Virus record (IMG/VR): IMGVR_UViG_3300047481_001896
Span: 1-38,487 of that record
Source: a virus
Direction: 5' to 3' (one strand)
DNA length: 38,487 bases
Made by a program: the position numbers and the translations under genes. Shown here in pieces: positions 2,283 to 32,665 of the stretch. The notes beneath the pieces were generated by a model. It searched no databases. It saw nothing but the letters and a program-made list of their open reading frames with translations, and was not told the origin of the DNA. Each line of letters begins with the position of its first letter. Position 1 is the stretch's first letter.

Positions 2283-2285
2283 GCG

Positions 2286-2465: not shown

Positions 2466-2478
2466 GGATCGGTAATAA

Positions 2479-2516: not shown

Positions 2517-2520
2517 CATT

Positions 2521-2958: not shown

Positions 2959-2962
2959 TAAT

Positions 2963-2984: not shown

Positions 2985-3000
2985 GATACCGGAGCATCGA

Positions 3001-8249: not shown

Positions 8250-8292
8250 GAAAATAAAGATTATAGATACACAGGCAAAAAGTAAGGCTTAG
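8149..8292 (+). CDS. Small basic phage protein, 47 aa, overlapping csgG out of frame
   Basis: The ATG at 8149 has a strong GAGGAG ribosome site 7 bases upstream. The product begins MSWFKRTPHLRKPRKQKLH and continues with a Lys-rich, Ser-containing helix ending DTQAKSKA. MSWFKR(T/K)P followed by a basic Pro-rich stretch is the start of a small protein I recognise from T4-like phages; function unknown. The first 101 bases overlap the csgG tail in another frame, so csgG may have grown into this gene or the reverse. Confidence 0.65.
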   Translation: MSWFKRTPHLRKPRKQKLHKSSLLRDKKQLEQSEKIKIIDTQAKSKA

Positions 8293-8343
8293 ATTAGTTA
8301 AAAATAAAATAACAAGGTATAATAAAATACCAAGGAGCGAAAA

Positions 8344-17749: not shown

Positions 17750-18072
17750 ACGATAAACAAAAGTTTCTAGAAGATCTAAAAACAGGTGTGCGTTCTGTGG
17801 TTATCAATGACTGCTATGGTGGCTTTGGATTAAGTTCTAAAGCTATCGATGAGTATCGTCGTTTGGCCTGTATCACCGATCCTGAATTTTACGATAGGGA
17901 AATCGCTAGAGATGATCCCTATCTAGTAAAAATCGTCAAGCAACTAGGAATGGGAGCCAACGGTCCCCATTCCAATCTTAAAATAGTGGAGATCCCTGGT
18001 GATGTTGAATGGATCATACAAGAATATGATGGTGCAGAATGGGTAGCGGAAGCACACAGGACCTGGAGTTAA
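17746..18072 (+). CDS. Conserved phage protein, 108 aa, unknown function
   Basis: Starts in an ATGA overlap with the metallophosphoesterase. A helical start (DKQKFLEDLKTG) is followed by VVINDCYGGFGLSSKAIDEYRRL and an ICR-like acidic region. The end has LKIVEIPGDVEWIIQEYDGAEWVAEAHRTW. The IxxYDGxExVAExHRxW end is familiar from phage hypotheticals, but no function is known. Confidence 0.8.
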   Translation: MNDKQKFLEDLKTGVRSVVINDCYGGFGLSSKAIDEYRRLACITDPEFYDREIARDDPYLVKIVKQLGMGANGPHSNLKIVEIPGDVEWIIQEYDGAEWVAEAHRTWS

Positions 18073-18278
18073 TCACTAAGGTTTCTTTTGGCAAAGACAG
18101 ATATCATGAACAAGAGGACATGATACGTTGGTGTCAAAAGAATCTCGGAACCGGTGGTTGGCAATGTTCTCTGGTCTTAGGTGATAATCGCTGGCGGGTC
18201 GATTCAATGTTTGGAAGTACCCAGTTCTGGTTTAAAGAAGAACGAGATTATCTATTGTTTTCTCTGAGGTGGATGTGA
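18039..18278 (+). CDS. LRW-family small protein 1
   Basis: First of five tandem paralogues sharing the pattern WC (helix), then a loop with W, then an F-F-x(n)-D-x-x-x-F-x-L-R-W end. Here MIRWCQKNLG and FWFKEERDYLLFSLRWM carry it. The annotated ATG at 18039 lies inside the previous gene. By comparison with paralogue 2, translation may really begin near 18063-18072 at a non-ATG codon. Soluble, unknown function. Confidence 0.65.
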   Translation: MGSGSTQDLELITKVSFGKDRYHEQEDMIRWCQKNLGTGGWQCSLVLGDNRWRVDSMFGSTQFWFKEERDYLLFSLRWM

Positions 18279-18481
18279 TTAAAATCAGCTTTGACAAACT
18301 ACAGGCAGAACACAAGAAAGAAATGGTCCGATGGTGTGTGCAGAGATTTGGACACAGCGAACCAGATCCTCGTGGACTTGTAGGAGACAAGCGATGGACC
18401 TATGACAGTGTAGGTCCTAGACTATTCTTCTTCTTCAACAATGATTACGATCATGTGATGTTCGCACTGAGGTGGATGTGA
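18275..18481 (+). CDS. LRW-family small protein 2
   Basis: Start GTG at 18275 in a GTGA overlap with paralogue 1, with GAGGTGG 4-5 bases before it; a GTG 6 bases upstream is the alternative. 68 residues: IKISFDKLQAEHKKEMVRWC, a Gly/Asp loop, FFFNNDYDHVMFALRWM. It aligns over its full length with paralogue 1 (TKVSFGKDRYHEQEDMIRWC), which shows a recent tandem duplication. Confidence 0.7.
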   Translation: MIKISFDKLQAEHKKEMVRWCVQRFGHSEPDPRGLVGDKRWTYDSVGPRLFFFFNNDYDHVMFALRWM

Positions 18482-18501
18482 GAGTACTTTAAAAAATCAA
18501 T

Positions 18502-18765
18502 ATGGCCGCAAACCTAGAAGAAGAAATCGCCAATGAGTTAGCCAGTGGCATGCAGAGTGAAATGGATTTTCACATACTATCAGACATGCTGGTACAACTA
18601 GGATGGAAGAAAGTAGTTCTTACTAGATTCTTCAGTCGCAAACATTCTGTAGACATTTTGATGTGGTGCGAAGAACATATCAAACATCCTTTTGAGCATA
18701 GAGGTACCACCTTTGTTTTTGAAAACAAAGGAGACGCTGTGAACTTTACATTAAAATGGACATAA
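18502..18765 (+). CDS. LRW-family small protein 3
   Basis: 87 residues. An acidic helical start (NLEEEIANELASGMQSEM) and DFHILSDMLVQLGWKKVVLT precede the family part: ILMWCEEHIKHPF and FVFENKGDAVNFTLKWT. Here the LRW end is LKW. It is the most diverged of the first three. The next start (ATG 18756) lies inside its end. Confidence 0.7.
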   Translation: MAANLEEEIANELASGMQSEMDFHILSDMLVQLGWKKVVLTRFFSRKHSVDILMWCEEHIKHPFEHRGTTFVFENKGDAVNFTLKWT

Positions 18766-19040
18766 AATACAAAATCGTAGGAGACAGAGTCGAAGAAATT
18801 CGCGGAGTAACTGTTTATGAATTTAAAGTAGGCGATGTTGACGATCCGGAAATATACGCTGCCCAACCTATATGGGAATGGCAACAGAGTGAACGAGGAC
18901 AATGGGTAATGAAAAATGCCTATGAAGTTCCTGTGTACTATCATCAGGCAGATTTTGCCGATATGGGACATAAGTACGTAATAAGAGCAAAATTTATGGG
19001 ACCAGCATTGACAGAATGGTTGTTAAAGTATGGCAAGTAA
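18756..19040 (+). CDS. Conserved phage protein, 94 aa, inside the LRW array
   Basis: Overlaps paralogue 3 by 10 bases and paralogue 4 by 11. It begins MDIKYKIVGDRVEEIRGVTV; then come FKVGDVDDPEIYAAQPIWEWQQ and ERGQWVMKNAYEVPVYYH, a beta-rich pattern found in unnamed T4-like phage proteins. The end is FMGPALTEWLLKYG. It lacks the WC and LRW marks of its neighbours. Function unknown. Confidence 0.75.
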   Translation: MDIKYKIVGDRVEEIRGVTVYEFKVGDVDDPEIYAAQPIWEWQQSERGQWVMKNAYEVPVYYHQADFADMGHKYVIRAKFMGPALTEWLLKYGK

Positions 19041-19296
19041 AGAATATCCAAAATTATTTGCCAATATGGCCCATAAACAAGTAGGGGCAATTTTATTGGA
19101 ACACGAAAGATTGATGCAGATCCTTGAATCTTATCATGTGGTGAGATTAATCAATGATGATGACTTTGCAGAAAAATTGACCTGGTGTATGGAGCATTGC
19201 CAAAGTAAATTTCGAGACATAAAAGAATCTAGTTGTCGAGCTTGGTATTTCCAAAACGAGCAAGATGCTAGTATGTTTGCTATGAGATGGGCATGA
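19030..19296 (+). CDS. LRW-family small protein 4
   Basis: 88 residues. A helical start (HKQVGAILLEHERLMQILES) precedes the family part: KLTWCMEHCQSKF, RAWYFQNEQDASMFAMRWA. The WC, aromatic-F and MRW marks are all present. Coupled to paralogue 5 (ATGA). Confidence 0.7.
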   Translation: MASKEYPKLFANMAHKQVGAILLEHERLMQILESYHVVRLINDDDFAEKLTWCMEHCQSKFRDIKESSCRAWYFQNEQDASMFAMRWA

Positions 19297-19568
19297 GATA
19301 TAATCAAATATGGATCGATGAAATGACCGAACTACCCAATACCAAAATTTATTGGATAGATACTGCTAGGCGATATGCACTATCAGCAAGAATGCGGGTA
19401 ATTTCTGCAGATAATGAAAATCATTTTGTCACAGGACTCAGCGAAAAAGACATAGATCCAATACAACAATGGTGTGAAGAACACAACTGCGGCCGCCGAT
19501 TAAGTTTTGATACTTTTCAATTTAAAAATAAAAAAGAAATTACTATGTTTCTGCTGAGGTGGGGATGA
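19293..19568 (+). CDS. LRW-family small protein 5
   Basis: 91 residues from ATG 19293, which overlaps the previous stop (an ATG 6 bases upstream is possible). DPIQQWCEEHNCGRR and FQFKNKKEITMFLLRWG carry the family pattern. Its first half (IWIDEMTELPNTKIYWIDTA) is unlike the others. Coupled to the next small gene (ATGA). Confidence 0.7.
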   Translation: MRYNQIWIDEMTELPNTKIYWIDTARRYALSARMRVISADNENHFVTGLSEKDIDPIQQWCEEHNCGRRLSFDTFQFKNKKEITMFLLRWG

Positions 19569-21547: not shown

Positions 21548-21582
21548 ATATGATAAGTAATAGTGAATCCAGAGGAGCAAAC

Positions 21583-22143
21583 GTGACCAAAAAAGCAGAT
21601 GATTTTAATGCGGAAGATCGCGTCAACATTAAATTACTCGAAAGCAACATACATTATCTTTTTGGGGAAATTGAAGAGAGCAATATTTCAGAATGCATCA
21701 AATGGATTTTATACGAAAATCTAGATGCCAAAGAAAAAGTTCTTACTCTGTACATAAACTCAACGGGCGGTAATCTCTACGAAGCATTTGCACTGATCGA
21801 TGTGATTAGAAATAGTCGTCATTCTGTAAGAACTATAGCCCTGGGTTCAGTGATGAGTGCAGCATTTTTAATCTTTGCAGCAGGAACCAAAGGCGAAAGA
21901 TATGCTGCCAGAAATACCAGTTTTATGTGTCATCAATTCAGCGAAACTATGAGTGACAAATATCATGATCTCAAAGCGACCATGAAAGAAAATGATATCT
22001 GTAATGAAAAAATGGTAGTGATATTGAAAGAAGCCACCGGATTAGCTGCCGGCGTGATCAAGAAAAAATTGCTGCCACCGTCTGATGTTTATCTGACAGC
22101 AGAAGAATGTGTAGATCTTAATGTGGCAGACCATATTACCTAA
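21583..22143 (+). CDS. clpP: ClpP-like serine protease subunit
   Basis: Barrel-forming peptidase of the Clp system. The start is GTG 21583: AGGAG lies 5 bases before it and a promoter minus-10 overlaps the upstream ATG frame. In 186 residues, LYINSTGG (57-63), GSVMSAA (Ser92 nucleophile), FMCHQFS (His117) and PPSDVYLTAEE (Asp168) supply the whole catalytic triad, and VIKKKL lies in the handle region. ClpP homologues in phages serve as prohead-type or host-directed proteases. Here ClpS and DnaK are also present, suggesting control of protein quality during infection. The usual Tyr/Phe residues for ClpX loops cannot be judged by eye. Confidence 0.93.
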   Translation: MTKKADDFNAEDRVNIKLLESNIHYLFGEIEESNISECIKWILYENLDAKEKVLTLYINSTGGNLYEAFALIDVIRNSRHSVRTIALGSVMSAAFLIFAAGTKGERYAARNTSFMCHQFSETMSDKYHDLKATMKENDICNEKMVVILKEATGLAAGVIKKKLLPPSDVYLTAEECVDLNVADHIT

Positions 22144-23316: not shown

Positions 23317-23391
23317 GGTCTCAAGGTGTTCATGGACGCATACCGGCTTGTCACGCCGAAGGAGGGGGATCGTTACCCCCTGGGACCGCCA
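23317..23391 (+). tRNA. tRNA-Asp (GTC)
   Basis: Acceptor GGTCTCA/TGGGACC, loop TTGTCAC with anticodon GTC, T-arm GGGGG/CCCCC, encoded GCCA end. Complete cloverleaf. Confidence 0.9.
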
Positions 23392-23400
23392 AAGTTTTAT

Positions 23401-23475
23401 TCCGAGATAGCACAGCGGTAGTGCAGTTGGCTGTTAACCAATTGGTCGTAGGTTCGATCCCTACTCTCGGAGCCA
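23401..23475 (+). tRNA. tRNA-Asn (GTT)
   Basis: Acceptor TCCGAGA/TCTCGGA, loop CTGTTAA with anticodon GTT, GGTTCGATCC T-arm, encoded CCA. Confidence 0.93.
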
Positions 23476-23481
23476 AATAAT

Positions 23482-23556
23482 GCACGGTTCGTCTATCGGT
23501 AAGGACGCTGCCCTTTCAAGGCGGAAAGACGAGTTCGATTCTCGTACCGTGTACCA
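23482..23556 (+). tRNA. tRNA-Glu (TTC)
   Basis: Acceptor GCACGGT/ACCGTGT (first pair G-T), loop CTTTCAA with anticodon TTC, T-arm GAGTTCGATTCTC, encoded CCA. Confidence 0.93.
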
Positions 23557-23557
23557 T

Positions 23558-23633
23558 GCGGGTGTAGCTCAGTTGGTAGAGCGTAACTTTGCCAAAGTTA
23601 AGGTCGACAGTTCGAGACTGTTCACCCGCTCCA
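23558..23633 (+). tRNA. tRNA-Gly (GCC), copy 1
   Basis: Acceptor GCGGGTG with CACCCGC, loop TTGCCAA with anticodon GCC, encoded CCA. A second, shorter Gly-GCC tRNA is at 28866. Confidence 0.93.
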
Positions 23634-23639
23634 AGTTTT

Positions 23640-23738
23640 GCCTCTGTAGCTTAATGGTAAAGAAACGAGCTTATACCTCGTCAAAGCACCGGCCAGATAA
23701 GCCGGCGTGTGCAGGTTCGAGTCCTGCCAGAGGCACCA
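23640..23738 (+). tRNA. tRNA-Ile (TAT) with an unusual long variable arm
   Basis: Acceptor GCCTCTG/CAGAGGC, anticodon stem ACGAG/CTCGT with loop CTTATAC, anticodon TAT. Between anticodon and T arms are about 29 bases holding a CCGGC/GCCGG hairpin. Ile tRNAs normally have a short variable loop, so this class II-like arm is odd. Encoded CCA. Confidence 0.75.
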
Positions 23739-23742
23739 ATAT

Positions 23743-23816
23743 GTATCCTTAGTGTAACGGCAGCATTACAGTCTCCAAAACTGTCGGTGGGGGTTCAAAT
23801 CCCTCAGGGTACGCCA
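23743..23816 (+). tRNA. tRNA-Trp (CCA)
   Basis: Loop CTCCAAA with stem ACAGT/ACTGT, anticodon CCA, T-arm GGGGGTTCAAATCCCTC, encoded 3' GCCA. Confidence 0.92.
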
Positions 23817-23822
23817 AACAAT

Positions 23823-23900
23823 GCACAGGTGGCAGAGTGGCCCAATGCAAGGGACTGCAAATCCCTAAAACCGTGAGTTCAAATCTCACCCTGTGCTCCA
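23823..23900 (+). tRNA. tRNA-Cys (GCA)
   Basis: Acceptor GCACAGG/CCTGTGC, anticodon stem AGGGA/TCCCT with loop CTGCAAA, T-arm GTGAG/CTCAC, encoded CCA. Confidence 0.92.
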
Positions 23901-23904
23901 GTAT

Positions 23905-23982
23905 GCCCCTCTAGCCCAATTGGTATGAGGCGTCTCTCTCAAAAGGAGAATCGTGTCGGTTCGAATCCGACGAGGGGTACCA
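23905..23982 (+). tRNA. tRNA with Leu anticodon (CAA), short variable loop
   Basis: Acceptor GCCCCTC/GAGGGGT, stem TCTCT/GGAGA with loop CTCAAAA, anticodon CAA. Only 5 bases lie between anticodon and T arms, whereas bacterial Leu tRNAs carry a long variable arm. T-arm GTCGG/CCGAC, encoded CCA. Confidence 0.75.
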
Positions 23983-23990
23983 AAGATTAT

Positions 23991-24080
23991 GGAAGTGTGG
24001 CAGAGCCTGGCTGAATGCACCTGTCTTGAAAACAGACGATCCGAAAGGGTCCGTGAGTTCGAATCTCACCGCTTCCACCA
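23991..24080 (+). tRNA. tRNA-Ser (TGA)
   Basis: Acceptor GGAAGTG with CGCTTCC, loop CTTGAAA with anticodon TGA, long variable arm (GATCCGAAAGGGTC), T-arm GTGAG/CTCAC, encoded CCA. A regular class II tRNA. Confidence 0.93.
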
Positions 24081-24085
24081 AATAT

Positions 24086-24160
24086 AGCCTATTAGCTCAG
24101 TGGTAGAGCACCGTCTTGATAAGGCGGGGGTCCTTGGATCGTTCCCAAGATAGGCTACCA
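24086..24160 (+). tRNA. tRNA-Ile (GAT)
   Basis: Acceptor AGCCTAT/ATAGGCT, stem CCGTC/GGCGG with loop TTGATAA, anticodon GAT, encoded CCA. Confidence 0.93.
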
Positions 24161-24227
24161 ACTATAAGGAGAAAACAAAATGGGGCGGTCGCAGTTATTA
24201 TTTTGGTTATCATAGGGTTGATTTGGA

Positions 24228-24256
24228 TTGACAAAACATTGAAGTGAACATATAAT
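24228..24256 (+). promoter_or_regulatory. Sigma-70 promoter, TTGACA-N17-TATAAT
   Basis: Perfect consensus: minus-35 at 24228-24233, minus-10 at 24251-24256. The start site falls near 24262, at the first base of an 8-bp hairpin. Confidence 0.9.
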
Positions 24257-24261
24257 ACAAA

Positions 24262-24360
24262 CACTAAGGAGAAAGACATGAAGCGAGGTAAACCTTAGTG
24301 TCGCCTGGAATCCCGTATGGTCCAGGTTGGCACAGTAAATCAACTTAATACGGACTATAT
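24262..24360 (+). ncRNA. Short structured RNA candidate between Ile and Lys tRNAs
   Basis: Begins at the start site of a perfect promoter. CACTAAGG (24262-24269) pairs exactly with CCTTAGTG (24293-24300) and covers an AAGGAG ribosome site and a 6-codon ATG frame. A second hairpin, CCTGGA/TCCAGG, follows, overlapped by CCGTAT/ATACGG pairing. Could be a leader or small RNA cut from the tRNA-Lys transcript. Confidence 0.45.
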
Positions 24361-24435
24361 GGGAGTATAGCTCAGCGGTAGAGCAGCGGACTTTTAATCC
24401 GTTGGTCCAGGGTTCAAATCCCTGTGCTCCTACCA
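24361..24435 (+). tRNA. tRNA-Lys (TTT)
   Basis: Acceptor GGGAGTA/TGCTCCT, stem with loop CTTTTAA, anticodon TTT, T-arm CAGGG/CCCTG, encoded CCA. Its CCA is also the start of a 19-bp inverted repeat. Confidence 0.93.
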
Positions 24436-24522
24436 TATAAAAACACACTTAACTCCAAACATAGTTAGAGTACTGGGAAAGGCCACCTTCTAGGAAAAAG
24501 GCATAAGTGTGTTTCTATATGG
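24433..24522 (+). repeat. 19-bp inverted repeat bridging two tRNAs
   Basis: The arm at 24433-24451 (from the CCA of tRNA-Lys) and the arm at 24504-24522 (through the GG of tRNA-Met) are complementary at 18 of 19 positions; the loop is 52 bases. In RNA this would be a long stem joining the two tRNAs, probably a processing or stability structure. There is no gene within. Confidence 0.65.
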
Positions 24523-24595
24523 TAATGTAGCATAATGGTAGTGCAACACCTTCATACGGTGCCCAGTGAAAGTTCAACTCTTTCCATTACCACCA
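24521..24595 (+). tRNA. tRNA-Met (CAT), elongator-like or Ile2
   Basis: Acceptor GGTAATG/CATTACC with a normal first pair, loop TTCATAC with anticodon CAT, encoded CCA. Could be elongator Met or a lysidine-modified Ile tRNA; sequence alone does not decide. Confidence 0.88.
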
Positions 24596-24597
24596 GA

Positions 24598-24605
24598 CTT
24601 AAATA
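24598..24605 (+). promoter_or_regulatory. Late promoter-like octamer CTTAAATA
   Basis: Ends 5 bases before ATG 24611, with no ribosome site; another apparently leaderless late gene. Confidence 0.45.
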
Positions 24606-24610
24606 AGTGT

Positions 24611-24853
24611 ATGAAAGAGCTACTGAAAAATCTGCCGCAGATATTAGCTGCGATGCCAGAACTAGTAAAGTACCTGAAATACATTCCAATTCTAATGATC
24701 CTTGCAGGCCTAGGTTTCGGAGCAGTCTACCTAGTACAAAATCGCAAAGATCCTTACAAGTGTGTAAATAATCACGTTTTTGAACAACTAAGATTAGACA
24801 GCGATGTCTATGTGTTCAAAGGCGGCACCTGTGTGGACGCTAAAGATCTATAA
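24611..24853 (+). CDS. Small single-pass membrane protein, 80 aa
   Basis: Sits between tRNA-Met and tRNA-Gln. The ATG at 24611 is used, since upstream codons lie in the tRNA. MKELLKNLPQILAAMPELVK is an amphipathic start. A membrane segment of about 20 residues (IPILMILAGLGFGAVYLVQ) follows, then a polar domain with two Cys (YKCVNNH and GTCVDAKDL). May be a small envelope protein; no family recognised. Confidence 0.75.
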   Translation: MKELLKNLPQILAAMPELVKYLKYIPILMILAGLGFGAVYLVQNRKDPYKCVNNHVFEQLRLDSDVYVFKGGTCVDAKDL

Positions 24854-24857
24854 CTGT

Positions 24858-24931
24858 TGGCGTGTAGTGTAATGGTAACACCACAGACTTTGACTCTGTT
24901 ATTCTAGGTTCGAGCCCTAGCACGCCTGCCA
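24858..24931 (+). tRNA. tRNA-Gln (TTG)
   Basis: Acceptor GGCGTG with CACGCC (first pair T-T), stem CAGA/TCTG with loop CTTTGAC, anticodon TTG, encoded CCA. Confidence 0.9.
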
Positions 24932-24932
24932 A

Positions 24933-25006
24933 GCTCTTGTAGTTAAGTGGTATAACACTGTCTTGGTAAGACAGAATCACAAGTTCAATTCTTGTCTAGA
25001 GCACCA
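24933..25006 (+). tRNA. tRNA-Thr (GGT)
   Basis: Acceptor GCTCTTG/CTAGAGC, stem CTGTC/GACAG with loop TTGGTAA, anticodon GGT, encoded CCA. Confidence 0.92.
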
Positions 25007-25011
25007 TACAC

Positions 25012-25086
25012 CGGTCCGTAGCTCAGTGGAAGAGTTCTGGTCTTCGAAACCAGCAGTCGGGAGTTCGAATCTCTCCGGACCGGCCA
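25012..25086 (+). tRNA. tRNA-Arg (TCG)
   Basis: Acceptor CGGTCCG/CGGACCG, stem CTGGT/ACCAG with loop CTTCGAA, anticodon TCG, encoded CCA. Confidence 0.92.
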
Positions 25087-25102
25087 TTTCAAGGAGATTG
25101 TT

Positions 25103-25288
25103 ATGAAAGCAACTATGCTTAAAAATCGTTTTAATAATGAGCGTTTTGTCTGTGACGATATCCGTGTGACCGAAAACATTGATGGTGTAGAATACATCAT
25201 AGTTCATCGTCCGAATGAGCATCGTGAATTTAAAATGCGTCGCGATGCATTAGAGAAAATTGAAAGAATTAAAGAACCTGCAAAATAA
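25103..25288 (+). CDS. Small basic protein, 61 aa
   Basis: AAGGAG lies 8 bases before the ATG. A beta-rich core (RFVCDDIRVTENIDGVEYII) is followed by HRPNEHREFKMRRDALEKI and a Lys/Glu tail. Lys/Arg-rich, soluble. Lies inside the tRNA array between Arg and His; no family recognised. Confidence 0.7.
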   Translation: MKATMLKNRFNNERFVCDDIRVTENIDGVEYIIVHRPNEHREFKMRRDALEKIERIKEPAK

Positions 25289-25303
25289 GACGATACCATC
25301 AAT

Positions 25304-25377
25304 GGTGTTGCTAGTGTAATGGTTGCACGGCTGTCTGTGAAACAGTAAGGCAGGGTTCGATTCCCGGCTTCACCCCA
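25304..25377 (+). tRNA. tRNA-His (GTG)
   Basis: Loop CTGTGAA with anticodon GTG; discriminator C, which is diagnostic for His. Acceptor GGTGTTG/CTTCACC has two T-T mismatches and the T-stem one A-G. The extra 5' G is not evident. Somewhat degenerate. Confidence 0.8.
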
Positions 25378-25382
25378 AATAT

Positions 25383-25458
25383 GCCAACTTAGCAAATGTG
25401 GTCATTGCAGCCGCCTGAAGAGCGGTAGAACCTGGTTCGATCCCAGGAGTTGGCACCA
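25383..25458 (+). tRNA. tRNA-Phe (GAA)
   Basis: Acceptor GCCAACT/AGTTGGC, stem CCGC/GCGG with loop CTGAAGA, anticodon GAA, encoded CCA. Confidence 0.92.
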
Positions 25459-25461
25459 TAT

Positions 25462-25538
25462 ACGGATGTGACGGAATAGGTATACGTATCAGACTTAAAA
25501 TCTGAGTTTCGTGGGTTCGAATCCCACCATCCGTACCA
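25462..25538 (+). tRNA. tRNA with Leu anticodon (TAA), short variable loop
   Basis: Acceptor ACGGATG/CATCCGT, stem CAGA/TCTG with loop CTTAAAA, anticodon TAA. The D-arm is Leu-like (GACGGAATAGGTATACG) but the variable loop is only 5 bases (GTTTC), unlike class II Leu tRNAs. Encoded CCA. Confidence 0.8.
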
Positions 25539-25543
25539 AACAC

Positions 25544-25615
25544 GCCTCTGCCGATGGAGCGGTGCCAGGTCTTCTAAACCAGGTTATGGGAGTTCGAATC
25601 TCTCCAGAGGCGCCA
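25544..25615 (+). tRNA. tRNA-Arg (TCT)
   Basis: Acceptor GCCTCTG/CAGAGGC, loop CTTCTAA with anticodon TCT, an A-A mismatch in the anticodon stem and a short D-arm (CCG/CGG). Encoded CCA. Confidence 0.85.
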
Positions 25616-25623
25616 GAATATAG

Positions 25624-25652
25624 TTGACATTTGTCAACAAAGAATACATAAT
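25624..25652 (+). promoter_or_regulatory. Sigma-70 promoter, TTGACA-N17-CATAAT
   Basis: Minus-35 at 25624-25629, minus-10 at 25647-25652. Its minus-35 lies in a TTGACA/TGTCAA inverted repeat. Starts the Leu-Val-Ser tRNA group. Confidence 0.75.
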
Positions 25653-25663
25653 ATACATTGTTT

Positions 25664-25746
25664 GCCCCGGTGGTGTAATGGTAGCCACGCTGGTCTTAGA
25701 AGCCAGTGCCTAGTGCGTGTCGGTTCGAGTCCGACCTGGGGCACCA
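25664..25746 (+). tRNA. tRNA-Leu (TAG)
   Basis: Acceptor GCCCCGG with CTGGGGC, stem CTGGT/GCCAG with loop CTTAGAA, anticodon TAG, variable region about 12 bases (reduced class II), T-arm GTCGG/CCGAC, encoded CCA. Confidence 0.92.
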
Positions 25747-25749
25747 AAT

Positions 25750-25824
25750 GCATCGTTAGTTCAGCGGTAGAACGTCGCCCTTACAAGGCGAATGTCAGTG
25801 GTTCGACTCCATTACGATGCACCA
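25750..25824 (+). tRNA. tRNA-Val (TAC)
   Basis: Acceptor GCATCGT/ACGATGC, stem TCGCC/GGCGA with loop CTTACAA, anticodon TAC, encoded CCA. Confidence 0.93.
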
Positions 25825-25830
25825 GATTTA

Positions 25831-25923
25831 GGAAGGATGGCTGAGAGGCTGAAGGCAGCGGTTTGCTAAACCGTCGATCTCTGTAAAAGTGGTCCGAGGG
25901 TTCGAATCCCTCTCCTTCCACCA
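25831..25923 (+). tRNA. tRNA-Ser (GCT)
   Basis: Acceptor GGAAGGA/TCCTTCC, loop TTGCTAA with anticodon GCT, long variable arm, T-arm GAGGG/CCCTC, encoded CCA. Confidence 0.93.
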
Positions 25924-25943
25924 AGTTTAAAAAAGGAAACTAA

Positions 25944-26123
25944 ATGTTGAAACCTACCGCAAATTATAAGATGTCAAAGGCTTTAAAGACCAGTTTAGCA
26001 CTGAGTAAATTTTCTAGCACACAACAACGTAATGATTGGAAACGTGCCATGATTGGTGCAGAACTTGCTGCCGCGATCCAACCTAAGAGAGAGAAAAATC
26101 GTAGAGAGGACAAGGGAGAATAA
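25944..26123 (+). CDS. Conserved small phage protein, 59 aa
   Basis: AAAGGAAACTAA precedes the ATG. LKPTANYKMSKALKTSLALS, then a stretch with NDWKRAMIGAELAAAI and a basic acidic-mixed tail. The pattern NYKMSK...WKR-MI-AELAAAI is familiar from T4-like phages. Helical, basic, unknown function. The stop TAA is followed at once by the next gene. Confidence 0.75.
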   Translation: MLKPTANYKMSKALKTSLALSKFSSTQQRNDWKRAMIGAELAAAIQPKREKNRREDKGE

Positions 26124-26124
26124 T

Positions 26125-26280
26125 ATGCAAGTTAGAGTTAATACAACAGAAAAAATTGGAACCTGCGGCTGTGGTCGTAGCCCAACCGGAGATTGTATTG
26201 GTTGGCACGGATTAAGTGAATCAGAGTTCCAAGCCAAACTTCAAGAATACCTAGCAGAAGAAGAAAAGAAAAATAATTAA
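26125..26280 (+). CDS. Small CDGSH-like Cys/His protein, 51 aa
   Basis: The ATG at 26125 follows the previous stop by one base with GGGAG upstream. TCGCGRSPTGDCIGWHGLSE has C-x-C-x7-C-x3-H spacing. It resembles the CDGSH iron-sulfur motif (C-x-C-x2-S-x3-P-x-C-D-G-x-H) but lacks the Pro-x-Cys-Asp-Gly part. An Fe-S or zinc site is inferred. The tail is an acidic helix. Similar small proteins occur in aquatic phages. Confidence 0.75.
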   Translation: MQVRVNTTEKIGTCGCGRSPTGDCIGWHGLSESEFQAKLQEYLAEEEKKNN

Positions 26281-26286
26281 CGTATT

Positions 26287-26360
26287 GGGGGATTAGTTAA
26301 ATGGGATAACAACGGCTTTGCAAGCCGTGATTAACAGTTCGATTCTGTTATCCTCCACCA
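26287..26360 (+). tRNA. tRNA-Ala (TGC)
   Basis: Acceptor GGGGGAT/ATCCTCC (third pair G-T, as Ala tRNAs have G3-U70), stem ACGGC/GCCGT with loop TTTGCAA, anticodon TGC, encoded CCA. Confidence 0.92.
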
Positions 26361-26364
26361 ATAT

Positions 26365-26438
26365 GCCCTTTTAGTTAAATGGTATAACAGTTGATTTGTA
26401 ATCATCAATTGGCAGTTCGATTCTGTCAAGGGGCACCA
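26365..26438 (+). tRNA. tRNA-Thr (TGT)
   Basis: Acceptor GCCCTTT/AAGGGGC, loop TTTGTAA with anticodon TGT, one mismatch in the anticodon stem, encoded CCA. Closely similar to the Thr (CGT) tRNA at 28944, so probably a duplicate pair. Confidence 0.88.
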
Positions 26439-26454
26439 AGATTATCAAAATGTC

Positions 26455-26482
26455 TTGACAAAGACATAAAACAGTGTATAAT
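26455..26482 (+). promoter_or_regulatory. Sigma-70 promoter, TTGACA-N16-TATAAT
   Basis: Minus-35 at 26455-26460, minus-10 at 26477-26482. Start site near 26489, directly before a GAAA-capped hairpin. It leads the structured RNA B. Confidence 0.88.
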
Positions 26483-26488
26483 AAGTTT

Positions 26489-26730
26489 TGTTGAGTTAGA
26501 AATAACTCAACCGGTGAGGTGAAAGGTAGATGAGGATAGACACTAGGCTTAGGTTTTATACCTAATCCGAACTTATCTGGCAAAGACTCTTGAAAAGTCT
26601 TCGTGCTTGAGTGAACCGATTCTTACATACCTGTCAATTGCTGATCGGAAATATTCAGGCCACTGTCGCCTGTCTATTGCACGTTGTCAAGGATTGATAA
26701 AATCCGTTTGTCATTTGTCCGGTCTATTAC
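26489..26730 (+). ncRNA. Structured non-coding RNA candidate B
   Basis: A transcript from a consensus promoter that begins with an 8-bp hairpin, TTGAGTTA/TAACTCAA (26491-26510), capped by GAAA. Further perfect hairpins: TTAGGT/ACCTAA (26549-26565), AAGACT/AGTCTT (26583-26601), CAGGC/GCCTG (26656-26672), and long-range CCGAT/ATCGG (26616-26620 with 26644-26648). No convincing gene. A promoter for rpoZ follows at 26731. Function unknown; it could act in trans or control the operon. Confidence 0.6.
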
Positions 26731-26759
26731 TTGACCTTTCATTGATCCGTCAGTATAAT
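26731..26759 (+). promoter_or_regulatory. Sigma-70 promoter, TTGACC-N17-TATAAT
   Basis: Minus-35 at 26731-26736, minus-10 at 26754-26759. AAGGAAGCAAG and the rpoZ ATG follow at 26773, so the omega gene has its own host-type promoter and a very short leader. Confidence 0.88.
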
Positions 26760-26772
26760 ATAAGGAAGCAAG

Positions 26773-27003
26773 ATGGCAAGAATTTCGTCAGAAGAAGCAG
26801 TGAAGCAAATTGGTAATAGATTTGATCTTGTACTGATAGCTAGTCAACGTGCCAGAGAACTTAAAAATGGTTCTCTACAAAGAGTAGACGGCAAGGATGC
26901 ATCTCCTACTATTACAGCTCTTAGAGAAATCGAACAAGGTAAGTATACCAAAGCAGAATATCTAACAAAATTAAAGAAAAAGGAAAAGGCAAAATGGGAA
27001 TGA
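26773..27003 (+). CDS. rpoZ: RNA polymerase omega subunit homologue
   Basis: Omega stabilises the beta-prime subunit and affects sigma choice and ppGpp response. [20 protein letters not shown] is near-identical in layout to bacterial RpoZ (MAR[17 protein letters not shown]), followed by ASQRAREL and [10 protein letters not shown], the second conserved helix. At 76 residues it is complete except for a shorter C-terminal tail than E. coli (91). A phage omega could replace the host subunit and retune RNA polymerase. It has its own sigma-70 promoter and overlaps the next gene. Replacement by horizontal gain from a bacterium is inferred. Confidence 0.93.
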
Positions 27004-27572
27004 ATATCACACTGCGCAAGGCTAATGCTGTACAGAACAGCATCAATGATGTAATTAAAAACATCAGCTTCGACACCACTGTAGAACTGAACGAGTTCCA
27101 AGATCCCGGTGTAGAGTTGACCAAGGCCAACGAAGCCTTGTTTACGGCAGATGCCCGTAGACAGAAACTGACGATGGCTCTATATAATATCAGAGCTTTG
27201 GTTGGTACTGCTAATGCCGCTAGTGATATTGATACTACACTAGCTAAAGCTGCGTTTATTGACAAGAGGATTGGTCAATTGGAACAGCTGGCTACATTGA
27301 AGCCTTACACTGATCTCGATGTGATCAAAGGTAAACTTGAGAAGATCAAGAGTCTCAAGGACGAAGCTCGTAGCAGAATTTACGGCTACGGCGATACAGT
27401 AAGTACTACTGTGGTTAGCAAGGAGCAAATCGCTCAGGCCAAGGCAGAAATCCTTAACCTGAAAAAGCAAAAGCAAAAACTCAATGATGAAATTTTAGAG
27501 TTGAACATTAAAACTGAGATTCCGCTCAGCGATGAAGTTGTTCAAGTCCTTCAAGAAGAAGGCTTGCTCTAA
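26994..27572 (+). CDS. Phage coiled-coil protein, 192 aa
   Basis: Start ATG 26994 overlaps the rpoZ end; ATG 27000 in the ATGA overlap is an equal alternative. Mainly helical: [15 protein letters not shown], a long region with [17 protein letters not shown], then [22 protein letters not shown] (heptads, about 150-178), ending [13 protein letters not shown]. Members of this kind occur in T4-like aquatic phages without known role. Confidence 0.8.
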
Positions 27573-27951
27573 CAGACCCCGGGGTCCCTTCCTCGTTATT
27601 AAAGGGGGTAATTGACTTCACCAGAATGTCAGGGTGCAAACGGTAACGACCCCAAGGCCCTCTTTAGGGGCGACTTGAGACACCGTGGCGGCAGAAGCAG
27701 AACTGACGACAAAAACCTAAATACTGATCGACAGGGTAGACAACTCAGTCTAGGGCGGAACAGGGAACTGTGGCTAGACACTTTTATTGATAGCATTCAG
27801 CGGGTATCGTTTGTGGACGCACAGACTCATGAGGAATAGGGCCATCTTACTCTTCTGATAAAACCGTGAGCAATGGCTTATGAGGAGAATCGAACTCCAC
27901 TCAGAAATTCGCTCAGTCCTATAAGGCTTGAGTACTATCAATAAAAGTTTG
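27573..27951 (+). ncRNA. Structured non-coding RNA candidate C, before initiator-like tRNA
   Basis: 379 bases without a convincing gene. A perfect 14-bp stem, ACTTTTATTGATAG (27780-27793) with its complement at 27935-27948, closes a domain holding several hairpins: GTTTGTG/CACAGAC with loop GACG; CTCAT...GCCAT/ATGGC...ATGAG; GGAG/CTCC; CTCA...CC/GG...TGAG. In the 5' half are a 12-bp palindrome (GACCCCGGGGTC) and alternative pairings of one GTCTAG (with TAGAC upstream or CTAGAC downstream). A multibranched RNA is likely; no known family fits by eye. Confidence 0.6.
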
Positions 27952-27952
27952 A

Positions 27953-28026
27953 CGCGGAGTATAGAAATGGTATCTTGTCAGTCTCATAAGCTGACGTTGG
28001 GGGTTCGACTCCCTCCTCCGCAACCA
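27953..28026 (+). tRNA. Initiator-like tRNA-fMet (CAT) with C1-A72 mismatch
   Basis: Reading T8-A9 normally puts C1 opposite A72, with six good pairs after it (GCGGAG/CTCCGC) and the end AACCA. C1-A72 is the formylation mark of bacterial initiator tRNA. Loop CTCATAA, anticodon CAT. The three G-C pairs usual in the initiator anticodon stem are absent (TCAGT/GCTGA), so it is a partial match. Confidence 0.8.
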
Positions 28027-28031
28027 ATCAT

Positions 28032-28110
28032 CCGAGTGTAGGATAGCCTGGTTCATTCCGCCTGCTTTGGGAGCAGGATGTCGCAAGTTCGAATCTTGCC
28101 ACTCGGACCA
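28032..28110 (+). tRNA. tRNA-Pro (TGG)
   Basis: Acceptor CCGAGTG/CACTCGG, stem CCTGC/GCAGG with loop TTTGGGA, anticodon TGG, encoded CCA. Confidence 0.92.
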
Positions 28111-28114
28111 TTTA

Positions 28115-28189
28115 CTCGCTGTAGTTCAATGGACAGAACGAGTTCCTCCTAAGAACTAGATCCAGGTTCGATTCCTGGTAGCGAGGCCA
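28115..28189 (+). tRNA. tRNA-Arg (CCT)
   Basis: Acceptor CTCGCTG/TAGCGAG, stem AGTTC/GAACT with loop CTCCTAA, anticodon CCT, encoded CCA. Confidence 0.92.
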
Positions 28190-28192
28190 AGT

Positions 28193-28200
28193 GTTAAATA
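28193..28200 (+). promoter_or_regulatory. Late promoter-like octamer GTTAAATA before tRNA-Gly
   Basis: Ends 7 bases before the first base of tRNA-Gly (TCC). Same spacing as in the leaderless protein genes, so transcription could begin at or next to the tRNA 5' end. Confidence 0.4.
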
Positions 28201-28207
28201 GTTTTAT

Positions 28208-28285
28208 GCGGGTAGACAGGACAAGGGGCGTCCAGCAGCCTTCCAAGCTGAAGATCGCGGAGTTCGACTCTCCCTACCCGCTCCA
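28208..28285 (+). tRNA. tRNA-Gly (TCC)
   Basis: Acceptor GCGGGTA with TACCCGC, stem GCAGC/GCTGA with loop CTTCCAA, anticodon TCC, encoded CCA. The D-arm is irregular (AGGACAAGGGGCGTCC). Confidence 0.88.
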
Positions 28286-28291
28286 TAATAA

Positions 28292-28864
28292 ATGCAAGTA
28301 ATAGATCAAAACGATACCTTCCGGAAGTTTGACTTTAGCTCTGTAATTACTGAGCAGGATAATAATATCGCCATAGGCATTATTAAAGAAATTATCGCTG
28401 ACGGAAATTACTTTGCAAATTCTCCTAAGTATCAAACCAAAGAAAATATTTTTGCTAGAGCAGAAGACATCTGGTTAAAATATAGAATGAGTTTTTTATT
28501 CAGTGTTTTCTTATATCTAGGTCGTGAAGTTAAAGTTTCTAATATGATGGCCTGGTCATTTATGACTAATCTTGAGGGTGCCGAAAATCGAGAAAATCTT
28601 TGGCATCATCATTGGCATCCATCTAAACCCGAATCTAAAATTATGAGCGGGATCTTTTATCTTGATATTCCCAACGATGTAAAAGATCTAGATTACTGCG
28701 GAACAGAATTCGCTCCGGAAGGTTTAGAATCCGATGTGAAATTTTTTGTAAGACCTTCCAAATACAATTGGCTGATTTACCCTGGTGATAAATGGCACAG
28801 ACCGGGAATAGTGCAGAGTAATGAATACAGGTTTATATTAGCTGCGGACGTTGAATATCTCTAA
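28292..28864 (+). CDS. 2OG-Fe(II) oxygenase-like phage protein, 190 aa
   Basis: No signal peptide. A helical N-terminal half precedes a jelly-roll-like half: WHHHWHPSKPESKIMSGIFY, LDIPNDVKD, GTEFAPEG, then WLIYPGDKWHRPGIVQ, EYRFILAADVEYL. The H-x-H...SG-x-Y-L...P...H...R order is that of phage 2-oxoglutarate/iron hydroxylases, with the distal His in KWHRPG and the Arg in EYRF. The usual Asp of HxD is not obvious. The function in the phage is unknown. It lies between two tRNA-Gly genes. Confidence 0.75.
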   Translation: MQVIDQNDTFRKFDFSSVITEQDNNIAIGIIKEIIADGNYFANSPKYQTKENIFARAEDIWLKYRMSFLFSVFLYLGREVKVSNMMAWSFMTNLEGAENRENLWHHHWHPSKPESKIMSGIFYLDIPNDVKDLDYCGTEFAPEGLESDVKFFVRPSKYNWLIYPGDKWHRPGIVQSNEYRFILAADVEYL

Positions 28865-28865
28865 T

Positions 28866-28939
28866 GCGGGTATGATGTAATGGTAACCTACAACTTTGCC
28901 AAAGTTGATTTGCGAGTTCGATTCTCGCTACCCGCTCCA
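28866..28939 (+). tRNA. tRNA-Gly (GCC), copy 2
   Basis: Acceptor GCGGGTA/TACCCGC, stem CAACT/AGTTG with loop TTGCCAA, anticodon GCC, encoded CCA. It starts one base after the upstream stop codon. Confidence 0.92.
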
Positions 28940-28943
28940 AACT

Positions 28944-29017
28944 GCCCCTTTAGTTAAATGGTATAACAGGTCCCTCGTAATGATCAATTGGCAGTTCGAT
29001 TCTGCCATGGGGCACCA
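28944..29017 (+). tRNA. tRNA-Thr (CGT)
   Basis: Acceptor GCCCCTT with ATGGGGC, loop CTCGTAA with anticodon CGT, one mismatch and one wobble in the anticodon stem. Most of it matches the Thr (TGT) tRNA at 26365. Encoded CCA. Confidence 0.87.
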
Positions 29018-29018
29018 T

Positions 29019-29047
29019 TTGACAGTAATTAAAAAATAAACTATAAT
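29019..29047 (+). promoter_or_regulatory. Sigma-70 promoter, TTGACA-N17-TATAAT
   Basis: Minus-35 at 29019-29024 begins within 2 bases of the last tRNA; minus-10 at 29042-29047. Perfect consensus; starts the infA operon. A 9-codon frame from ATG 29071 overlaps the infA start and could be a leader. Confidence 0.9.
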
Positions 29048-29085
29048 AATACAAAGGAGATTATAATTTATGATCAAGGACGTAT

Positions 29086-29304
29086 ATGTCAAAAACTGAT
29101 ATTATAGAACTAGTTGGTGTAGTAGAAGAAGTGCTGCCGGGCAGTATGTATAGGATTAAATTAGAGCAGATGTCTAAACCTATTGTTTGCTATACAGGCG
29201 GTAAATTGAAACAGCATAAAATTAAAATAATTTTAGGTGATAAAGTAAAGGTAGAAGTCAGTGCCTATGATCTAACCAAAGGTCGTGTCACATATCGTTT
29301 ATAA
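29086..29304 (+). CDS. infA: Translation initiation factor IF-1 homologue
   Basis: IF-1 binds the ribosomal A site and helps IF-2 and IF-3 place the initiator tRNA. 72 residues, the exact E. coli length: an OB-fold with IIELVGVVEEVLPGSMYRIKLE (IE-x-x-GxVxExLPxxMFRVxLE), HKIKIILGDKVKVEVSAYDL (xIRIxxGDKVxVExxPYDL) and a TKGRVTYR end (SKGRIxxR). AAGGA lies in the spacer before the ATG. A perfect promoter drives it. With the initiator-like tRNA at 27953 it implies the phage intervenes at translation initiation. A phage IF-1 is unusual to my knowledge. Confidence 0.93.
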   Translation: MSKTDIIELVGVVEEVLPGSMYRIKLEQMSKPIVCYTGGKLKQHKIKIILGDKVKVEVSAYDLTKGRVTYRL

Positions 29305-30988: not shown

Positions 30989-32665
30989 ATGCCTTTACAA
31001 ATTCGCAGAGGAACAACAGCGGAAAGAACGTCAATTAGGCCCATCATAGGCGAATTGATCTATGATACAACACTCAAACAAGTTTTTGTCGGTGACAGCA
31101 CAGACGGGGGCGTTACTGGCACCCTTGGCGGAACTGCTGTTACAGCTTTCGGAACAGAAGATGCACAAGACGCTGTAGCCAGTGTTCTTTCCTCTGGTAC
31201 ACATACCGGTATTTCGTTTACCTACGACGACGCTGCTAATAAAATTTCTGCTACTGTAGGGGGTGGGGTCGTTGTCCTAGATATCAAAGGTTCTGTATTC
31301 ACAGATGATACTAGCACAGTGTTAGTAGATAGTGTATTAGGTGCTATAAATTTAGATAATACTATTAGAAGCAATGTAATACCTTATGTAGATTCAACCT
31401 ATGATCTCGGCAGTGCTGCTAAAAGATTTAAAGATTTATATTTGAGCGGTTCCAGTCTTTATGTGGGAAACGCTGTAATAACAGCTACAGGCTCAGCTAT
31501 TAATTTACCAGCTGGCTCCACGGTTGGCGGTGTAGCTATTGGTTCGGGATCAGGCGACGGTGTAATAACCGGCAGTAATTACAATATAAACATCGTAGCA
31601 GACGACAGTACCGTTTTATTAAATTCAGGAACAGGTATTATTACTGCTCCGGGAGGATTTGTTGGTAATCTCACTGGCAATGTTACTGGTGCTATGACCG
31701 GTGCTGTCTTTGGTAATGTAAGATCTACTAATGGCGTTACTGTGTTGAATTCAGGCACCACAGGAGATGATGCTTCGTTTGTTGGTATTGTTACCGGTGA
31801 TATTTACGGTTCGGTATTAGCTGAAGACAGCACCGTGATCGTAGATCAATTGAATCAATCGGTGAATGCATCAGGAGGATTTACAGGCAATCTAGTAGGT
31901 AATGTTACAGGTAACCTAACAGGTAATGTTACAGGTAACCTAACAGGTAATGTTACAGGTAACCTAACAGGTAATGTTACAGGTAACCTAACAGGTAATG
32001 TTACAGGTAACCTAACAGGTAATGTTACAGGTAACCTAACAGGTAATGTTACAGGTAACCTAACAGGATTACATATTGGTGATGCTATAGGATCTGTGTT
32101 CGCACAAGATTCTACCCTTCTTGTTAACGGTGTAGATGGGAAAATCGTAGGACCAATAGAAACTAATTCTATTTTGATAGATAAAAACCTAGGTGGTATA
32201 TTAATAGAATCGGAAGGGGATGTAAATGATTCCTATGATTTATTTACTATAAAGCTAGCTAATAGCGAAGTTGACGGATCTCCTAAACTACAACTCAGAT
32301 CTAGAGGAACTATAAATAGTCCAACTGTGATTTTAACCGGTGATGCGATTGCCTCAGATTACTATATGGGATATAACGGCACTACACACATTCCTGCGGT
32401 ACTTGTCACAGCGAAAGCTAGCGGAACTGTTACTACAGGAGGAGCTGTTCCAGGAGCTTTCGAAATATCGACACTTAATAATGCCGGATCTCTAGTATCG
32501 GCATTTAAAGTAGATCATACACAATTAGTTCATGTAGCAAATAACAGTGTGGCGGCCGGAGGAGGATCAGGTCAAGTAAATGTCGGCGGCGGAGTAGTTG
32601 GTTATCTCAAATTAAATATTGGCGGAACAGATTATGCTATTCCGTATTATGGTTTAAATCCTTAA
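30989..32665 (+). CDS. Phage fibre-like structural protein with repeats, 558 aa
   Basis: MPLQIRRGTTAERTSIRPII, GELIYDT and QVFVGD are a common N-terminus of T4-like phage tail-fibre or virion surface proteins. Beta-strand repeats follow with alternating G-N-V-T and G-N-L-T. Seven exact 8-residue repeats (GNVTGNLT) occupy residues about 304-359, encoded by seven identical 24-bp repeats. The C-terminal part (about 380-558) is a Gly/Ser/Ala-rich shaft and a domain ending YLKLNIGGTDYAIPYYGLNP, as in fibre tips. Host attachment is the likely role. It is followed by a terminator and the AT-rich minus-strand cassette. Confidence 0.85.
   Translation: MPLQIRRGTTAERTSIRPIIGELIYDTTLKQVFVGDSTDGGVTGTLGGTAVTAFGTEDAQDAVASVLSSGTHTGISFTYDDAANKISATVGGGVVVLDIKGSVFTDDTSTVLVDSVLGAINLDNTIRSNVIPYVDSTYDLGSAAKRFKDLYLSGSSLYVGNAVITATGSAINLPAGSTVGGVAIGSGSGDGVITGSNYNINIVADDSTVLLNSGTGIITAPGGFVGNLTGNVTGAMTGAVFGNVRSTNGVTVLNSGTTGDDASFVGIVTGDIYGSVLAEDSTVIVDQLNQSVNASGGFTGNLVGNVTGNLTGNVTGNLTGNVTGNLTGNVTGNLTGNVTGNLTGNVTGNLTGNVTGNLTGLHIGDAIGSVFAQDSTLLVNGVDGKIVGPIETNSILIDKNLGGILIESEGDVNDSYDLFTIKLANSEVDGSPKLQLRSRGTINSPTVILTGDAIASDYYMGYNGTTHIPAVLVTAKASGTVTTGGAVPGAFEISTLNNAGSLVSAFKVDHTQLVHVANNSVAAGGGSGQVNVGGGVVGYLKLNIGGTDYAIPYYGLNP
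31898..32065 (+). repeat. Seven exact tandem 24-bp repeats in the fibre gene
   Basis: Each unit begins GGTAATGTTACAGG and encodes GNVTGNLT. All seven copies are identical at the DNA level, so expansion is recent and copy number is probably variable. A partial older unit lies near 31662-31700. Confidence 0.95.

Follow-up and report, generated by a model that had tools for sequence, protein, structure and literature searches.

The stretch of viral DNA analysed here, called the window in the following, comprises positions 1 to 38,487 of IMG/VR virus record IMGVR_UViG_3300047481_001896. It carries a gene for translation initiation factor IF-1 (infA) close to a tRNA-Met gene of the initiator type, both on the plus strand. 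The window was 99.8-100% identical to part of a 77,298-base contig (G001) of the same phage. The initiator-type tRNA-Met(CAU) gene at 27953-28026 was detected by ARAGORN and scored 52.2 bits with the Rfam tRNA model. It belongs to a plus-strand array (23317-29017; ARAGORN, Rfam) of 29 ARAGORN tRNAs and one tRNA-like element. The IF-1 gene at 29086-29304 encodes 72 amino acids and starts 1,060 nt after the end of the tRNA, with five further tRNAs in between. A second CAU tRNA at 24521-24595 on the plus strand has G1:C72 and C11:G24 and is a non-initiator, either of the elongator type or a tRNA-Ile2.

A reading of the sequence alone (the sequence-only reading) had described a 72-residue IF-1 with GDKVxVE and YDLxKGR marks and, about 1 kb away, a tRNA-Met with a C1-A72 mismatch, and both descriptions were borne out. 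The tRNA has C1xA72, and therefore no Watson-Crick pair at 1:72, together with G2:C71, C3:G70 and A11:U24, which are the formylation determinants of initiator tRNA (review PMC7949028). These features, the anticodon loop CUCAUAA and the pair G30-C40 are the same as in bacterial tRNA-fMet; CCA is encoded. The anticodon stem (UCAGU/GCUGA) differs from the bacterial one in having U31.G39 instead of G-C at 31:39, a pair found in 0 of 87 cellular initiators among the matches listed, and A29-U41. As the stem reads A-U/G-C/U.G instead of three G-C pairs, the tRNA is called initiator-type, that is, a variant. The claim that the three G-C pairs are lacking thus held for 29:41 and 31:39, but not for 30:40. 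The same reading had supposed that the stem might alter checking by IF-3. According to cryo-EM data, A1339 and G1338 of 16S rRNA grip pairs 30:40 and 29:41, and swapping pair 30:40 loses discrimination against CUG (PMC11497404). Because the A1339-gripped G30-C40 pair is kept, a loss of initiator checking is less likely than had been supposed.

The IF-1 protein scored 82.1 bits with the infA equivalog model TIGR00008 (cut-off 61.15), residues 3-72 being aligned to positions 1-69 of 69, and 64.6 bits with the Pfam family eIF-1a (PF01176; cut-off 30.2). Solved IF-1 structures were also matched, with a best E value of 2.8e-19. Both motifs are kept, as GDKVKVE and YDLTKGR. In nine pairs with the window protein the nonsynonymous rate pN was low, 0.05-0.15 compared to a synonymous rate pS of 0.52-0.75, with synonymous change near saturation. 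Across 43 distinct phage IF-1 proteins the stretches CY..GKLKQ.KI.IILGD and YDLTKGRVTYRL were at least 90% conserved. Compared with three cell IF-1 sequences, the phage proteins have a one-residue insertion and an altered GK.R.N stretch, which reads GGKLKQHKI in the window.

Three complete (12/12) matches to the sigma-70 consensus were present between 22400 and 32800, all on the plus strand, and one of them (TTGACA-17-TATAAT, 29019-29047) precedes IF-1. Sites with at least 9/12 matching positions numbered 35 in this region, compared to 21.6 expected in shuffles. TTGACA and TATAAT also occur 5' of IF-1 in a group of related loci (L003-L008). The exact consensus suggests that IF-1 would be transcribed early by the host polymerase. 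Shine-Dalgarno sites are present on the IF-1 message of the window; one (AAAGGAG, 29053-29059, plus strand) belongs to a short upstream open reading frame (ORF) of nine codons (MIKDVYVKN, 29070-29099, plus strand) that overlaps the IF-1 start. The two ATG codons are 16 nt apart, and this spacing recurs in L003-L008 and L044, in three sequence groups. The overlapping ORF is a possible candidate for coupling or autocontrol of IF-1. In loci L011-L014, L017 and L026 a sigma-70-type promoter ends 5-6 nt 5' of the IF-1 ATG, so that a leaderless IF-1 message is predicted there.

IMG/VR contained 251 IF-1 relatives, and the best 80 of the 251 loci were analysed; the largest contigs among these measured about 270 and 266 kb. 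Many loci were short, one (L002) was the window's own phage, and the relatives' records are fragments or of uncertain completeness, which applies to all counts of presence and absence given here. Among these best 80 of 251, 17 loci had an IF-1 identity of 79% or more together with 3 kb or more of upstream sequence, and in all 17 an initiator-type tRNA lay within 5 kb of IF-1. L002 is one of them, and they represent 9 different IF-1 proteins and 7 different tRNAs. An initiator-type tRNA was near IF-1 in 4 of 19 loci at 74-79% identity and in 6 of 21 loci below 74%. Altogether, a CAU tRNA without a standard 1:72 pair was found in 37 of the 80 loci, in 18 distinct sequences, and U31.G39 was present in 35 of the 37, with L015 and L044 as exceptions. 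Of 26 whole records, 16 matched the strict initiator pattern. Since the arrangement is conserved across IF-1 relatives, chance is excluded for the pairing in the window. The IF-1 gene and the initiator-type tRNA are thus confirmed as real, and their linkage is kept in close relatives. When only distinct tRNAs fitting the pattern were counted, those at IF-1 loci had U31.G39 in 13 of 15 cases and G30-C40 in 15 of 15, while other tRNAs had U31.G39 in 13 of 33 (Fisher 0.004, kinship ignored). A general link between IF-1 and U31.G39 was nevertheless rejected, as five records with IF-1 have tRNAs with GGG/CCC stems and the test ignores kinship.

The anticodon stem was then compared between cells and viruses. 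The cellular sample consisted of 119 loci with 87 distinct tRNAs, and the viral sample of 96 distinct tRNAs from two pattern scans; both are the first rows of the scans and non-random, and all counts of cellular and viral initiators in this text refer to the matches listed. Twenty of the 96 viral tRNAs resembled host tRNAs and probably come from prophage borders; they were excluded, which left 76, and an R11:Y24 filter removed 38 of these, leaving 38. Cellular and viral tRNAs were re-extracted with a single loop-free pattern and compared as distinct sequences. The loop CTCATAA had been fixed in the patterns that collected the cellular loci and one viral set, and the second viral set was collected loop-free. 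Viral loci from the pattern that fixed the anticodon stem were excluded from the stem count. Acceptor-end features were fixed by the search patterns, and the acceptor ends therefore contribute no evidence to this comparison.

Among the matches listed, all 87 cellular initiators had G-C at 30:40 and A-U at 11:24, and 86 had G-C at 31:39, the remaining one having G.U. Pair 29:41 was variable in 22 of the 87, and in 19 it was A-U, as in the window tRNA. The 38 viral R11:Y24 initiators likewise had G-C at 30:40 throughout, whereas 31:39 was U.G in 18, G-C in 14, C-G in 4, U-A in 1 and A-U in 1. Before this filter, 74 of the 76 viral initiators had G-C at 30:40, and 31:39 was U.G in 29, G-C in 28, A-U in 10, C-G in 5, U-A in 3 and A.C in 1. 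The difference in U31.G39 between cells (0/87) and viruses (18/38) gave a Fisher value of 1.4e-11, kinship being ignored. As 30:40 is constant while 31:39 varies, the virus appears to keep the main grip of the ribosome and to rewrite the pair that closes the loop. Free drift with loss of all three G-C pairs was ruled out by the 38/38 G-C pairs at 30:40 (74/76 unfiltered). A wobble at 50:64 was also considered as a special mark and rejected, because it was similarly frequent in viral (16/38) and cellular (31/87) tRNAs of the matches listed.

U31.G39 occurred in 36 of 104 viral CAU tRNAs without a 1:72 pair compared to 48 of 869 other viral tRNAs; eight further viral CAU tRNAs without an encoded CCA, three of them with U31.G39, were left out of the 104. 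Of the 48 cases in other tRNAs, 31 were tRNA-Leu. In the viral loci L002-L201, U31.G39 was present in 24 of 33 distinct tRNA-Leu(UAG), 6 of 12 tRNA-Leu(CAA) and 1 of 35 tRNA-Leu(UAA), and in 0 of 24 cellular tRNA-Leu of the control.

The sequence-only reading had also stated that several late genes look leaderless. TAAATA is the core of the T4 late promoter, which is TATAAATA in T4 (PMC2984593). Among ORFs of at least 100 amino acids, 6 of 78 in the window's phage (G001) have this box 3-8 nt 5' of the first ATG, compared to 0.20 expected. In a relative (G009) the figure is 15 of 219, compared to 0.35 expected, and the distances there peak at 5 nt. With the start geometry of T4, transcription from a box 5 nt away would presumably begin at the A of the ATG. 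Two predicted leaderless genes on the plus strand of the window are that at 12562-14622, where TAAATA ends 4 nt before the ATG, and that at 6452-6820, where TATAAATA ends 6 nt before it. A second enrichment of TAAATA was seen at 20-49 nt before the ATG (3 compared to 0.98 expected in G001 and 23 compared to 1.75 in G009), so promoters giving leaders exist too. In the T4 late region none of 45 genes had TAAATA 3-8 nt before the ATG, and 10 of 17 T4 boxes were 21-28 nt away. None of 21 near-box genes had a Shine-Dalgarno site, a result that is largely positional, as the box fills that place. The position of the promoters supports leaderless late genes as a class that would make up a minority of genes; the claim of several leaderless genes stood to this extent. 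In two other viral loci (L427:14700-16089 and L432:4428-6737) divergent genes have back-to-back late boxes, each 4-8 nt from the ATG.

Ten near-box genes of G009 were scanned. They comprised a terminase, two virion proteins, a weak tail-tube match, a head-tail adaptor, tail-fibre-like, heptose-kinase-like and radical-SAM matches, and two genes without a family. In a promoter survey of 22 records, in which 60-80 kb were read per record except for G001 and G009, at least four near sites were present in 10 of 14 records with IF-1 and in 3 of 8 without detected IF-1; in three of these eight (G102, G106 and G119) the initiator match was unconfirmed by ARAGORN. Leaderless promoters in records without detected IF-1 indicate that the trait extends beyond phages with the IF-1 set, and the link is suggestive only. 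The late sigma family phrog_234 was present in 12 of the 22 records, including G009, and was not found in the G001 fragment.

G001 has a gene for ribosomal protein bS21 (66708-66863), which lies outside the window, 1.4 kb from its left end. bS21 was present in 12 of 52 distinct records, 10 of 34 with IF-1 and 2 of 18 without. Among 26 records of relatives, IF-3 and formyltransferase were found in none and deformylase in two, and the three were therefore ruled out as a general partner set.

These observations can be read as a working, phage-adapted initiation set consisting of the initiator tRNA and IF-1, with bS21 outside the window. Judged from sequence, we consider the chances of this reading to be evenly balanced. 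We infer the timing, charging, formylation, ribosome binding and leaderless preference of the set as follows. The initiator tRNA and IF-1 would probably be made early from host-type sigma-70 promoters, and the tRNA would depend on the methionyl-tRNA synthetase and transformylase of the host for charging and formylation. By way of the retained G30-C40 contact it would gain access to the P site, and it would enlarge the initiator pool, while the phage IF-1 would raise IF-1 activity without added IF-3. Initiation could thereby be kept going late in infection, and the messages most responsive to initiator tRNA and IF-1 would be favoured, leaderless late mRNAs included. That leaderless mRNAs depend on initiator tRNA and initiation factors, as the sequence-only reading had held, agrees with a review in which leaderless translation is stimulated by IF1 and extra fMet-tRNA and can be inhibited by IF3 (PMC9031893). 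A phage that adds IF-1 and initiator tRNA, in which no IF-3 was found and which has predicted leaderless genes, would gain from this. The proposed bias of initiation towards the phage's own messages is favoured by the genes, their linkage and the late-promoter geometry, but it is weakened by the small number of leaderless genes and by the occurrence of the trait beyond IF-1.

Several further results weigh against a dedicated initiation set. The near-start box is limited to a minority of the ORFs of the window's phage (the 6 of 78 above), and the identified genes behind it in G001 are non-structural (heme oxygenase, QueC-like and radical SAM). Of 55 hand-picked starts in the window, among them that of the upstream ORF, 23 were preceded by a Shine-Dalgarno match of 5 nt or more, compared to 7.5% of randomly chosen positions. 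By the criteria used, most of the remaining starts show neither a Shine-Dalgarno site nor the leaderless box. The IF-1 message of the window's phage itself apparently has a leader. The part of Vibrio phage nt-1 that was read had no near-ATG TAAATA in 22 cases, though nt-1 has a U31.G39 tRNA. A tight link between leaderless promoters and IF-1 was rejected, the 10/14 and 3/8 records amounting to a tendency only. Among distant IF-1 relatives, only 10 of 40 had an initiator-type tRNA nearby. Conversely, of 29 records of at least 100 kb matching the initiator pattern, 23 were confirmed by ARAGORN and only 7 of these 23 contained IF-1, so that IF-1 and the initiator-type tRNA are often separate. Formyltransferase was found in none and deformylase in only two of the 26 relatives' records.

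The stem data fit at least as well another explanation, which is compatible with the initiation set and in which IF-1 would be a separate asset. The phage tRNA may replace host tRNA-fMet and, its base 39 no longer being C, withstand cutting by VapC-type nucleases; we put this forward tentatively, as a possibility. VapC of enteric bacteria reportedly cuts tRNAfMet between A38 and C39 (PMC4105405), and base 39 of the window tRNA, next to this cut, is G. An environmental VapC with tRNA-fMet as its target is BoVapC1 of Bosea (PMC8522696). Among the matches listed, C39 was present in 86 of 87 cellular but in only 14 of 38 viral R11:Y24 initiators (29 of 76 unfiltered), and the 31:39 change takes several forms while 30:40 remains G-C in all 38. 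The concentration of U31.G39 in viral CAU tRNAs without a 1:72 pair (36/104 against 48/869) points the same way, and resistance by anticodon-loop mutation has been proposed for other phage tRNAs (PMC10264068). However, the same paper puts the target of VapC-LT2 in the anticodon itself, in conflict with a cut at A38|C39. Loop positions 32-38 were unaltered in 32 of the 38 viral R11:Y24 tRNAs, and 14 of the 38 keep G31-C39. We know of no dependence of VapC recognition on base 39, and of no nuclease-related reason for U31.G39 in tRNA-Leu(UAG), where it occurred in 24 of 33. That the initiator is simply one member of a near-complete tRNA set replacing decaying host tRNAs, with a drifted stem and with IF-1 nearby because translation genes cluster, seems rather unlikely to us. 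The 29 ARAGORN tRNAs in a single array and the many records without detected IF-1 that carry initiator-type tRNAs agree with it, but the change is focused on 31:39 while 30:40 holds, unlike drift, and apart from tRNA-Leu, most other classes of viral tRNA seldom have G.U at 31:39.

It is improbable that the weakened third pair serves to relax start-site selection, lowering P-site discrimination so that unusual starts become usable. The unconventional initiators of Mycoplasma, which have AU/GC/GU stems with G31.U39 and a lower P-site discrimination, offer a parallel: the first pair is A-U, the middle G-C is kept and the third is a wobble. They differ from the window tRNA, in which the wobble is reversed (U31.G39, not G31.U39), which is virus-encoded and for which no IF-3 partner was found. 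Pair 31:39 is indeed the third of three conserved pairs (PMC7949028), but 30:40, the pair that guards against CUG (PMC11497404), was G-C in 38 of 38 viral initiators among the matches listed. A role of the phage IF-1 outside initiation, as an RNA chaperone or antiterminator with the tRNA as an unrelated neighbour, is very unlikely: the protein passed the infA equivalog cut-off and an initiator-type tRNA was nearby in 17 of 17 close loci. In favour of such a role, the phage family departs from the three cell sequences at the GK.R.N stretch and by the one-residue insertion. IF-1 is also a small OB-fold protein.

A combination of the initiation set with escape from cleavage would amount to a nuclease-proof viral takeover of initiation. 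In it, large phages would couple IF-1 and bS21 to a rewritten initiator in which the ribosome and formylation contacts examined are intact and only the pair at the reported 38|39 cut is altered; once the host initiator has been cut or has become scarce, phage messages would be favoured, leaderless late ones above all. We regard this as speculative and unlikely. What phage tRNAs are for has been disputed for more than 50 years, and in the VapC-LT2 case phages were said generally to avoid tRNA-fMet genes (PMC10264068). The window tRNA resembles the nuclease-resistant phage tRNAs of that paper in having a change at, or adjacent to, a site where an anticodon nuclease reportedly cuts. It differs from the VapC-LT2 case, as initiator-type tRNAs were frequent in viral contigs and were seen in cultured phages. 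A rewritten 31:39 with an untouched ribosome-contact pair in many viral contigs allows a precise test of nuclease escape and of the role of 31:39. A takeover of initiation would become testable through the nearness of IF-1 and through the bS21 genes and leaderless late promoters that these phages also carry. A phage that alters one pair rarely altered in bacterial initiators, near an IF-1 gene, suggests management of initiation on its own messages.

Phage IF-1 in large genomes has been described before: IF1 and IF3 are encoded by huge phages (PMC7162821), and the core gene set of Jug phages includes translation initiation factor 1A (PMC12363816). The main text of the former did not contain the word 'initiator' and that of the latter did not contain 'tRNA', whereas here IF-1 lies near an initiator-type tRNA, with bS21 in addition. 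A literature search with little coverage of subscription papers gave no report that ties an initiator tRNA of a phage to IF-1, and none of a 31:39 change in a phage. Initiator-type tRNAs of cultured phages are mostly annotated as tRNA-Met, and 21 named phages were picked from the match lists, labelled initiator-like mostly by A11:U24 and overall likeness. U31.G39 was present in Vibrio phages nt-1 and phi-ST2, S-CRM01, Torridgeon, alia, cr85_1 and Lak-A2, so that cultured phages with this stem exist. C31-G39 was present in Atu_ph07, RHph_TM3_3_3, Patelgo, Milchi and Zooman, and G31-C39 in BF, GAP32, CN1A, Cosmo, RpAliso and one of the two tRNAs of the 735-kb phage LR756501. The second tRNA of LR756501 has G31.U39, and phiEa21-4 has U31xU39. 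ARAGORN found no CAU tRNA in the stretch examined of Av-05 and PVPSE1. In nt-1, CN1A, GAP32, RpAliso, Torridgeon and Milchi position 1:72 is a weak U1-A72 pair, and in several of the phages the ends were unclear. IF-1 was not found in nt-1.

Within the tRNA array, Rfam called a tRNA with a long variable arm at 23640-23735 that is absent from the default ARAGORN list, and this list contains no tRNA-Tyr. An ORF at 28292-28864 is wedged between two tRNA-Gly genes: its ATG lies 6 nt past the CCA of the preceding one, and 1 nt separates its stop from the following one, and tRNA processing around it could yield a nearly leaderless message. Elsewhere in the window, a heme oxygenase gene adjoins a phycocyanobilin:ferredoxin oxidoreductase-like gene (3574-5267; 91.7 bits, under the cut-off of 206), together a bilin pathway. 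A chaperone and proteolysis set of DnaK, IbpA-like Hsp20, ClpS-like and Clp protease genes is located at 381-3300 and 21550-22143. The region 6880-11788 encodes a CsgG-like curli export protein (190.5 bits, under the cut-off), followed by repeat proteins that resemble curlins by eye and a FecR-like protein. Small genes in a row at 18039-19568 have similar ends (LRWM, LKWT, MRWA and LRWG) and apparently form a tandem paralogous family, and tandem GNVTGNLT repeats of a tail-fibre-like protein are encoded at 31881-32067.

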